A stretch of DNA of 64,000 nt from Desulfobulbaceae bacterium (GTDB lineage: Bacteria > Desulfobacterota > Desulfobulbia > Desulfobulbales > SURF-16), in contig JAHLLM010000002.1 in assembly GCA_020444175.1 (NCBI GenBank), positions 124,001-188,000 on the forward strand. Reading direction: 5' to 3'. A program made the translations under genes and the position numbers. Below, piece by piece: positions 4,368-63,341 of the stretch. Position 1 is the first letter of the stretch; each line of letters opens with the position of its first letter. The notes under the pieces were generated by a model, which worked only from the letters and a program-made list of their open reading frames with translations, searched no databases and had not been told where the DNA came from.

Positions 4368-4444
4368 ATATGACAATATTGCAAAAATCCTTGAAGCTGA
4401 CCATCTGACAAAGTTATATCAACAATAAATTAATATGGTTATAA

Positions 4445-4583
4445 ACAATTCTCAGTTAAAAATTGCCACTTTCTTGTCGCCAAGTTTCCAATACTGGATT
4501 CCCGCCTCCGCGGGAATGACATAACCAAGCCCGCCGTCACTCCCGCGGAGGCGGGAGTCTAGAGGTTGGCTACTGAGAATTGT
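4445..4583. repeat. 139-bp inverted-repeat element, copy 1
   Basis: Ends are perfect 12-bp inverted repeats, ACAATTCTCAGT (4445-4456) and ACTGAGAATTGT (4572-4583), with TA one base outside each end. Inside are two opposed palindromic cores, ATTCCCGCCTCCGCGGGAAT and its near reverse complement ACTCCCGCGGAGGCGGGAGT, so the whole unit can fold into a long hairpin. Same-length copies lie at 53225-53363 and, inverted, at 63180-63318. It has no coding capacity and resembles a MITE or a REP-derived element. It fills most of the gap 4275-4678 together with the kinase promoter. Confidence 0.85.
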
Positions 4584-4678
4584 ATAGAGGTAATTAAATT
4601 AAATGCGTATCAGCGGCGGTTGAAGGCTTTTAGAAACCGTCAAATATGGCGGTTTTGTATTGGATTTCAGATTTTTAA

Positions 4679-50768: not shown

Positions 50769-50953
50769 GTGATTACCACTGAAACTCAGCCAGTCTTGCA
50801 GCAGGTACTGTAATGCATTAATAATTCAAAAAATACTGTCTACACAAAAGTCATTCCCGCGAAAGCGGGAATCCAGAGTAGTTGGCTAGTCCGCCTGGAT
50901 TCCCGCCTCCGCGGGAATGACGTATAAAAAGGTTGAAAATGAGTGGTAATCAC
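50769..50953. repeat. 185-bp inverted-repeat element, family 2 copy A
   Basis: Ends GTGATTACCACT (50769-50780) and AGTGGTAATCAC (50942-50953) are perfect inverted repeats and extend imperfectly to about 24 bases. AAATTGTTA occurs at 50759-50767 and again at 50954-50962, so the insertion seems to be flanked by a target duplication of 9 or 10 bases. The interior carries two opposed REP-like palindromes, at 50850-50875 and 50897-50922. No coding capacity. A related unit is at 62922-63147. Confidence 0.75.
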
Positions 50954-51717: not shown

Positions 51718-53025
51718 TTAGCCCTCGACCAGCTTTCTTTTATCAATAACTCTTTTGGCTTTTCCCTCAAAACGTTCTAATGATTTTTCTTCAACAAGTT
51801 TGACATCCACTCCGATTCCAAGTTCTGTTGCCAGTCTTTTCTTTATATGATCGACTAATTGACGTTGCTTTTTCATCTGATCAAAAAATATAGATTCAAC
51901 AACCTCGACCAGAACGGTAACCTTGTCCAGGCGGTCCTCTCGTTCGACGACAATCTGGTAATGAGGCTCAGTGCCTTCGATATCAAAAAGAACTGCCTCA
52001 ATCTGCATGGGGTATACATTTACGCCCTTGATAATGAGCATGTCGTCGGTACGGCCAATGACGCGAGTCATTCTCTGAAAAGTCCGCCCGCACGGACATG
52101 GTTCAGGAAGCAACTTGGCCAGATCCCGGGTTCGGTAGCGAATAACCGGAAAAGCCTCTTTCGTCAAAGTGGTAAAAACCAGTTCCCCCAATTCACCCGG
52201 TTGCACAGGTTCCAGAGTATCCGGGTTGATTACCTCCACAAGAAAATGGTCTTCATTAATGTGCAAGCCATTGCATTCACTGCATTCACCCGCAACACCT
52301 GGGCCCATTACCTCGCTGAGACCATAGTTGTCAGTTGCCGTAATATGCAGCTTGTTGTTGATTTCACGGCGCATCTCTTCAGACCAGGGTTCGCCTCCGA
52401 ATAATCCGTAACGCAAGGAAAGGGCATTGAGGTTAATGTCCATTTCAATCATTTTGTCTGCAAGCAGCAGGGCATAGCTGGGCGTACATATCAATGCCGT
52501 GGTTTTGAAATCCTGCATGATCTGTATCTGTCTTTTGGTGTTGCCGCTTGAAATTGGAATAACCGATGCACCAACTTTTTCAGCACCGTAATGGAGTCCG
52601 AATCCGCCGGTAAAAAGTCCATATCCAAAAGCGATTTGAACCACGTCATCCTGCCCGACACCAGCAGAGGTAAGTATTCGAGCAACCATTTCAGACCAGT
52701 TTTTAATATCATTTCTGGTGTAGCCAACAACGGTAGCCATTCCTGTTGTCCCTGAAGAGGCATGAACGCGTACGACATCTCTTAATGGCACAGCAAAAAG
52801 GCCGTAAGGGTAATTGTCTCTCAGGTCATCTTTAGTTGTAAAAGGAAGATTGCGTACCTCCTCAAGAGACCGAAAACCATCCGGATCGATTTTCAGTTCC
52901 TTGAATTTTTTTCGATAAAAGGGAACATGCGTTGCCACACGGTAGAGAGTGGACTGCAGCCTTTCCAGTTGCAGTTGCTCAAGGTCTTCACGGGGTATGC
53001 ATTCTTTTGCTTCATCCCAGAACAT
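51718..53025 (-). CDS. paaK: Phenylacetate-CoA ligase
   Basis: A 435-residue adenylate-forming enzyme of the PaaK family. The AMP-binding P-loop-like motif [14 protein letters not shown] lies near residue 90, [12 protein letters not shown] near 235, and the C-terminal hinge segment [19 protein letters not shown] near 330. It makes aryl-acetyl-CoA from an arylacetate, ATP and CoA, or may run in reverse. A paralogue at 58806 is on the same strand, and the Liv transporter genes lie between them. Specificity for phenylacetate versus indoleacetate is open. Confidence 0.92.
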
Positions 53026-53224
53026 TATCGGCCTCCCAAATCAGATAAAAATAACAAAAATATTCAGCCTGATGCTGAAAACTGACGGTCTCGCAAAAAG
53101 CTCACGAGTTCAATCCGGCAACGCAATATCCCTGGTTGCATCGTTGGCGATGTTTGAGAGGTATTGTACCCACACGGAGCATAAATACGAAACCATCAAA
53201 ATTAATTAAAAAATATGCTTATAA

Positions 53225-53363
53225 ACAATTCTCAGTTAAAAATTGCCACTTTTCTGTCGCCAAGTTTCAAATACTGGATTCCCGCCGCCGCGGGAATGAC
53301 ATAACCAAGCCCACCGTCACTCCCGCGGCGGCGGGAGTCTGGAGGCTGACTTCTGAGAATTGT
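53225..53363. repeat. 139-bp inverted-repeat element, copy 2
   Basis: Same length and orientation as the copy at 4445. Left end ACAATTCTCAGT (53225-53236), right end CTGAGAATTGT (53353-53363). Its cores read GCCGCCGC and GCGGCGGC where the other copies read GCCTCCGC and GCGGAGGC, so one base pair has changed on both arms. It lies between the livF and paaK genes. Confidence 0.85.
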
Positions 53364-53389
53364 ATAGAGGCAATTTAAAAAAAAGGTTA

Positions 53390-54136
53390 TTAAACAACAT
53401 CACAGGTCGCGCCATCCGTGTCGACATCGCGCCCCAAATAGGCTCTCTGCACGTCGCGGTTGACGAGAAGATCTTCCGCCGGTCCCTGCAAAATTATTTT
53501 ACCGGTTTCCAGAACATATCCGCGGTCAGCAATACCAAGGGCTGCTTTCGCGTTTTGTTCGACAAGTAAAACCGTATTGCCGGCATCCCTGAGCTTAATA
53601 ATTATTTTAAAAATGTTTTTGACAATGAGTGGAGCAAGACCTGTTGACGGCTCGTCAAGCATAATGAGTTTCGGCTTGGCCATGAGGGCACGTCCCATGG
53701 CGAGCATCTGCTGTTCTCCTCCGGAAAGTGTACCGGCAAGCTGGTTTTCTCTTTCTTTTAAAACAGGAAATATGGAATAAATTTCATCAAGCTCTTGTCG
53801 CTGTTGATAATTTTTCCGTTTGTTCCGGACATAGCCGCCGAGTATCAAATTTTCTTTTACAGACATTGTGGCAAAAACCTGTCTCCCTTCAGGTACGAGT
53901 GAGCACCCCTGGGCCACAATTTTTTCTGGTTTTACCTTGTTAATGGGCATGTCCAGAAGTGTGATGTCTCCTGCGCTCGATTTTATCATGCCGGCAATGG
54001 TATAAAGGAGCGTGGTTTTCCCTGCTCCGTTGGCTCCAATGATCGTCACAATTTCACCACTATCTACATGCATGGAGATGCGCTTCAAAACACGCAGCTT
54101 GCCATAGCCTGACTCGATGTTTCTGATTTTAAGCAT
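53390..54136 (-). CDS. livF: Branched-chain amino acid ABC transporter ATPase LivF
   Basis: A 248-residue ABC ATPase. Walker A is GANGAGKTT, the signature LSGGEQQM, Walker B LIMLDEPS, and the switch His is in LLVEQNAKAAL (Gln/Asn variant of the H-loop is usual in LivF). I choose the third of three tandem ATG codons, 54136; the gene overlaps the livG end by eight bases. Upstream ATG at 54217 would run inside livG. It pairs with LivG to drive uptake. Confidence 0.93.
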   Translation of the reverse strand: MLKIRNIESGYGKLRVLKRISMHVDSGEIVTIIGANGAGKTTLLYTIAGMIKSSAGDITLLDMPINKVKPEKIVAQGCSLVPEGRQVFATMSVKENLILGGYVRNKRKNYQQRQELDEIYSIFPVLKERENQLAGTLSGGEQQMLAMGRALMAKPKLIMLDEPSTGLAPLIVKNIFKIIIKLRDAGNTVLLVEQNAKAALGIADRGYVLETGKIILQGPAEDLLVNRDVQRAYLGRDVDTDGATCDVV

Positions 54137-54893
54137 CATCATCACCCAGGTAGATTTGTATGACCTCTTTATTTTTTTGAATAGCACTCGGTTGGTCTTC
54201 AGCGATTTTCCGGCCAAAGCTCAACACCACAATTTCATCGGATATATCCATAACCAGAGACATATCGTGTTCAACGAGAAGGACTGTGATGCCCTGTGAC
54301 TGGATTTTGGTTATAAGACGGGCTATTTCCGCCGTCTCATAGATATTAAGACCTGCTGCAGGTTCGTCGAGAAGAAGCAGCTGCGGATCGGAAGCAAGTG
54401 CCCGGGCAAATTCAACAGCCCTCTGCTGCCCAAAGGCGAGACTTGTTGCCTCGGCATCGGCAAATTGCTCAATTTCAAGTAAGTCAAGAAGCTCAAGGGA
54501 TTTGTTGCGAATTTCTTTTTCTTCGGACCAGGATGTTGGTAAATGAAACATGCCGGCAAAAAAACCGGCACGGCTTTGGGTATGGCGGCCAACCATGACA
54601 TTTTCTAGGGCAGTCATGCCGGGGAAAAGCTTGATGTTCTGAAAGGTTCGTGAAATGCCGCAGTTGGCAATCTGATGCGGTTGCAGTGCCTGAATCTCTT
54701 TACTGTCAAAGAGTACCTTGCCGGAATTCAGGGGAAGATTGCCTGAGATAAGGTTGAAAAGTGTGGTTTTGCCGGCGCCGTTTGGCCCAATAACCGCCTT
54801 TATCATGCCTTTTTCAACAGAAAACGTGACATCATTGACTGCATGGAGTCCGCCAAAGCGTTTATTGACATTAGTGACTTCTAAGAGTGCCAT
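54129..54893 (-). CDS. livG: Branched-chain amino acid ABC transporter ATPase LivG
   Basis: A 254-residue ABC ATPase. Walker A GPNGAGKTT, a degenerate signature LAFGQQRAVEFARAL as is usual in LivG, and Walker B LLLLDEPAAGL; the H-loop LLVEHDM is present. It starts 18 bases after the livM stop and overlaps livF. Confidence 0.95.
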   Translation of the reverse strand: MALLEVTNVNKRFGGLHAVNDVTFSVEKGMIKAVIGPNGAGKTTLFNLISGNLPLNSGKVLFDSKEIQALQPHQIANCGISRTFQNIKLFPGMTALENVMVGRHTQSRAGFFAGMFHLPTSWSEEKEIRNKSLELLDLLEIEQFADAEATSLAFGQQRAVEFARALASDPQLLLLDEPAAGLNIYETAEIARLITKIQSQGITVLLVEHDMSLVMDISDEIVVLSFGRKIAEDQPSAIQKNKEVIQIYLGDDDA

Positions 54894-63147: not shown

Positions 63148-63179
63148 AATTTTATATTAATAAAGAAATTTGCCTCTAT

Positions 63180-63318
63180 ACAATTTTCTGTAGCCTACCT
63201 CTAGACTCCCGCCTCCGCGGGAGTGACGGCGGGCTTGATTATGTCATTCCCGCGGAGGCGGGAATCCAGTATTGGAAACTTGGCGACAGGAAAGTGGCAA
63301 TTTTTAACTGAGAATTGT
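63180..63318. repeat. 139-bp inverted-repeat element, copy 3 (inverted)
   Basis: Same family and length as the 4445 copy, in the opposite orientation. Left end ACAATTTTCTG (63180-63190), one base off consensus; right end ACTGAGAATTGT (63307-63318). It lies 32 bases after family 2 copy B and 23 bases before the thiF ATG. Confidence 0.85.
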
Positions 63319-63341
63319 TTATAAGCATATAAAGAAAAAAC

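Follow-up and report, generated by a model that had tools for sequence, protein, structure and literature searches.

The MITEs NEMIS/Correia, ERIC and RUP are short, non-coding elements with inverted ends, many intergenic copies and a strong predicted hairpin. All of these features recur in the element described here, whose end sequences differ from theirs and which is accompanied by an 8-bp duplication. A second described system, that of the CGTC-1 REPs, corresponds to the dRS3 repeats of Neisseria (PMC3733652; PMC3898611). A folded RNA is often considered proven when an inverted repeat shows complementary changes on both arms. A family of 40 copies in one genome helps to separate the causes of such changes: its REP stems are conserved, its loops vary freely, and copying between arms has left a clear footprint.

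The window analyzed here is a 64,000-nucleotide stretch of a Desulfobulbaceae genome, and it holds three copies of the element (Table 1). In the copy at 53225, cores 1 and 2 read GCCGCCGC and GCGGCGGC (53278-53297 and 53319-53338); the sister copies read GCCTCCGC and GCGGAGGC. Within these cores, TCCCGC-CGCC-GCGGGA starts at 53280 and TCCCGC-GGCG-GCGGGA at 53321, the corresponding loops in the other two window copies being CTCC and GGAG. The letters given by the first-pass annotation for the copies at 53225, 4445 and 63180 (minus strand) proved exact, and the T-A to G-C change that it described on both arms, with pairing retained, is real; its site is formed by the two REP loops, which pair with each other only in the long hairpin. 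Genome-wide, the double change CGCC/GGCG occurs in the 53225 copy only. Because the nearest copy, L002, has CTCC/GGAG and all other REPs of the genome lack the change as well, its origin is placed on the branch leading to the 53225 copy. The T.G and A.C mismatches bordering the change are unaltered, so that any tract copied at 53225 would have been at most about 16 bp long.

A whole-genome search returned 40 near-complete copies, spread over many contigs of the 90-contig draft assembly. Thirty-nine are distinct: L032 and L033 are identical, flanks included, and were counted once. This pair, at the end of contig C90 and near position 194000 of contig C28, represents the same element with identical flanks, that is, a duplicated segment or a contig overlap. 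When the copies were aligned together with their flanks, the boundaries were found at TATGCTT at the start and GGCAAA at the finish. The 139 bp annotated earlier are the inner part of the element, and their length was an underestimate, as aligned similarity continues outward to 161 bp. The terminal inverted repeats span about 22 bp, with 18 of the 22 positions paired in the consensus. At a length of 8 bp, the sequences on either side of the element showed a mean identity of 92%, versus 45% with shuffled partners, and the duplication was perfect in 20 of 33 testable copies; no comparable peak appeared at lengths 7 and 9. Flanks were adequate in 30 copies; all of them lie in intergenic DNA, between tandem (21), divergent (6) or convergent (2) genes or in an undetermined setting (1). 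A terminator-like role was rejected, since convergent genes flank only 2 of these 30 copies.

Table 1. Coordinates of the element at 53225, its parts, its neighbors and related features in the window
Feature	Position	Strand	Details
Full MITE-like element	53214-53374	+	161 bp; alignment of 40 genomic copies and target-site duplication (TSD) analysis
Left TSD	53206-53213		8 bp; TTAAAAAA
Right TSD	53375-53382		8 bp; TTAAAAAA, exact match to left copy
5' terminal inverted repeat	53214-53235	+	TATGCTTATAAACAATTCTCAG
3' terminal inverted repeat	53353-53374	+	CTGAGAATTGTATAGAGGCAAT
Core 1	53278-53297	+	CGTC-1/dRS3-type REP palindrome ATTCCCGC-CGCC-GCGGGAAT; sister-copy loop CTCC
Core 2	53319-53338	+	Inverted REP palindrome ACTCCCGC-GGCG-GCGGGAGT; sister-copy loop GGAG
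Second window copy (CTCC/GGAG)	4434-4594	+	L008; TSD TAAATTAA
Third window copy (CTCC/GGAG)	63169-63329	-	L016; TSD TTTCTTTA in element orientation
REPIN-like pair, same REP type	50850-50921	+	Opposite arrangement (CGTC ends outside); loops GAAA/CTCC, non-complementary
Predicted ABC-transporter ATPase gene	53390-54217	-	One neighbor of the 53214-53374 element
AMP-binding enzyme gene	51718-53025	-	Other neighbor of the 53214-53374 element

By its anatomy the element is a MITE: it is short and non-coding, has inverted ends and a target-site duplication of fixed 8-bp length, and is dispersed in multiple copies. It is a new element, but of an already known kind, the small mobile DNA repeat, and movement by cut-and-insert transposition is suggested by its target duplication of exactly 8 bp. 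Non-exhaustive end-motif searches of its own genome and 21 family genomes yielded only short elements or chance matches for an autonomous element with the same ends, and no partner transposase was found in them. Elements with related ends, for example GTGGCTATTAA...CTCAGC, are present in other genera (L080, L086, L092 and L097 in G009; L044 and L045 in G066 and G086), and here too REPs of this type lie inside the element as an inverted pair. Two atypical copies were also observed: L072 (near 1490-1580) has both inverted ends and neither REP palindrome, and L035 (G000:C37:165761-166503) is interrupted by roughly 150 bp of other sequence, possibly a nested insertion.

Each core consists of an 8-bp stem and a 4-base loop. 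Core 1 has all the hallmarks of a CGTC-1 REP/dRS3 repeat, namely a stem starting with AT, the 4-base loop, a TGTC head and a CCA tail; core 2 shares the CGTC head and the 4-base loop, but starts with AC and ends with CTA. The pattern TCCCGC(N4)GCGGGA has 197 matches in the genome, versus 1 for a reversed control pattern, and 49 REPIN-like pairs with the opposite arrangement were found, including the one in the window, their loops being mostly GAAA/TTTC. Across the 39 copies, the REP stems and the adjoining REP arms change little (0.8% and 1.0% substitutions per site); rates are higher in the REP loops (4.5%), the flanks (5.7%) and the apical loop (6.9%), and REP stems and REP loops differ significantly (P = 6e-5). 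What is conserved is the REP, apart from its loop, which is free to vary. Were the long hairpin the selected structure, the loop bases, which pair in its middle, should be under the same constraint as the rest, and they are not. Since the two REPs are inverted copies of each other, their loops started out complementary.

Loop states were then compared among copies: 28 of the 39 carry CTCC/GGAG, 9 differ in a single loop, and 2 have complementary double changes. These two, the 53225 copy (T-A to G-C) and L038 (T-A to A-T), are altered at the same pair, and both are double transversions. One possibility is coincidence: loop sites vary freely, and two independent substitutions there may have been complementary by chance. 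When the 3' letters were shuffled, at least one Watson-Crick double arose in about 17% of data sets at the observed loop rate (P = 0.17), and doubles in the terminal repeats match the shuffled expectation (P = 0.68). At least two doubles, however, were obtained with P of about 0.01, a value to be read with caution as several tests were made, and the fact that both affect the same pair as double transversions makes chance an unlikely source of the change at 53225. The shuffle tests take no account of relatedness among the copies, although internal branches in the copy tree are short. A separate alignment and count, made independently, likewise found double changes at one pair, in two copies; the loop covariation score was matched by 1 of 500 shuffles, and no such pair was seen in the local REP stems. 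A single double change is thus unremarkable alone and two together are mildly remarkable, and some coupling between the arms remains.

The interpretation given by the first-pass annotation is partly supported. Of its two readings, one was selection on a folded strand, for which support at this position is weak. Under this explanation, pairing between the loops of the two arms, in a transcript or a single-stranded transposition intermediate, would be maintained, with G.T allowed. The long hairpin is the predicted fold of the element (z = -7.4 against shuffles), and compensatory changes have been described as common in Pseudomonas REPINs (PMC3116915). The substitution spectrum also fits: single-arm changes in the cores amount to 14 distinct substitutions, every one a transition, and the two complementary doubles are the sole transversions there, whereas 54 transitions and 48 transversions occur outside the cores (P = 0.0003; P = 0.007 for G/C sites only). 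All 10 single-arm loop changes are transitions, 8 of which retain a G.T pair on the element + strand. On that strand, standard pairing is seen in 98.7% of loop-pair cells, a value matched by 1 of 500 shuffles. In the stems, the local hairpins alone can yield the transition excess; in the loops, where it is based on six distinct single-arm changes, it is no more than suggestive of pairing and fails in the REPIN set and in relatives. Strand-specific G.T tolerance over the whole long hairpin was rejected: 14 Watson-Crick pairs became G.T against 6 that became A.C, an excess not counted as significant because 4 of the 14 come from one degenerate copy, L038.

Other observations weigh against such selection. 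The loops change at the background rate, unlike the stems, and arm substitutions independent of each other, the pattern that the annotation itself had named as contradicting its reading, are found in the nine copies with one altered loop and in relatives, where 13 of 21 distinct loci with head-to-head REP pairs have non-complementary loops. Relatives also carry the same T-to-G change, uncompensated, at L097/L138 and L121, and stable C.C and G.G loop mismatches are common to several of their copies. Among the 49 REPIN pairs, 29 are complementary and 20 are not; with identical copies removed, 16 of 32 are complementary (permutation P = 0.12), and single transversions are present both in this set and in the pairs of relatives. 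Predicted RNA energies point the same way: a single-arm change costs just about 4-6 of 74 kcal/mol relative to either paired state and leaves the local hairpins unaffected. The double change stabilizes the long hairpin by less than 2 kcal/mol. Rfam matches in the window are tRNAs only. We regard compensatory selection as a tentative and rather unlikely explanation of the change at 53225. Its stricter form, in which the long hairpin is under strand-specific pairing selection that tolerates G.T and lets loop transversions survive only if both arms change, appears improbable; if it were true, this mobile element would depend on a single folded strand for its spread or function. The 53225 change lies in a loop that varies freely within a mobile repeat, and an accident of copying from arm to arm is likelier than selection on a folded RNA.

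A direct footprint of copying between arms is present within the family. In L040 (G000:C68:97599-98144), the nine bases to the right of core 2 read GACGGCGGG in place of the consensus CTAGAGGTT. They match exactly the reverse complement of the palindrome's own left flank, and beyond them normal sequence resumes. The replacement, which lengthens the arms of the palindrome to 17 bp, is what a short template switch within a hairpin would be expected to leave behind. Quasipalindrome template-switch mutations have been described in E. coli (PMC7202029), and one-step compensatory changes have been proposed to arise by template switching (PMC8794818). The copying of one arm onto the other, which the annotation had offered as its alternative, is thus directly documented in L040, and for 53225 we infer it. 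A base change would first have occurred in one arm of the element; during replication, the nascent strand would then have switched template inside the extruded hairpin and copied the changed base to the other arm, giving a complementary double without selection on the terminal branch to the 53225 copy.

We give about an even chance to this reading, in which the paired change at 53225 is the product of arm-to-arm copying without selection on a terminal branch and not the mark of a functional RNA. An isolated compensatory change bears no footprint that distinguishes copying from two mutations (PMC8794818). Two findings count against copying. Copying alone predicts that transitions are doubled as often as transversions, yet the two doubles are transversions and every one of the 10 single-arm loop changes is a transition, a pattern that, in tiny numbers, fits pairing selection better. 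The L040 footprint, moreover, lies in a local REP hairpin, and the 53225 change would need the long hairpin. Gene conversion from another repeat already bearing both changed loops could draw on about 200 related palindromes in the genome, yet TCCCGCCGCCGCGGGA is absent elsewhere in the assembly and the 53225 copy retains private differences in its flanks and spacer, which makes this source highly improbable. Conversion from a donor copy was rejected, as the CGCC loop is in no other REP of the assembly and no donor is available.

The element can be compared with similar systems already described. RAYT-mobilised REPINs (PMC3116915) are alike in having two inverted REPs in one hairpin and reported compensatory changes; the REP type here is CGTC, not GTAG, and the element duplicates its target, unlike a single-strand Y1 mechanism. 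Among 11 Y1_Tnp (IS200-like) matches (L107-L117), none has such a palindrome within 1.5 kb, and RAYT mobilisation was rejected because the Y1 genes are not near such REPs. The likeness to CGTC-1/dRS3 repeats (PMC3733652; PMC3898611) extends to the 8-bp stem, the variable 4-base loop, the (C/T)GTC head and the CCA tail. Core 1 fits ATTCCC(N8)GGGAAT and core 2 differs (ACTCCC/GGGAGT); the GTC ends lie inside, an arrangement described there as rare, and the pair is embedded in a larger element, one that has inverted ends and duplicates 8 bp of its target. In Halothiobacillus neapolitanus, CGTC-1 dimers lie in 41-bp palindromes (PMC3733652), alike in that a REP dimer regularly sits within a longer inverted repeat; their flanks differ, and the portion of that paper devoted to them does not mention a target duplication. 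The 2013 survey, in its treatment of CGTC-type REPs, found no dedicated transposase (PMC3733652); here, REPs of this type ride inside an element with an exact 8-bp target duplication.
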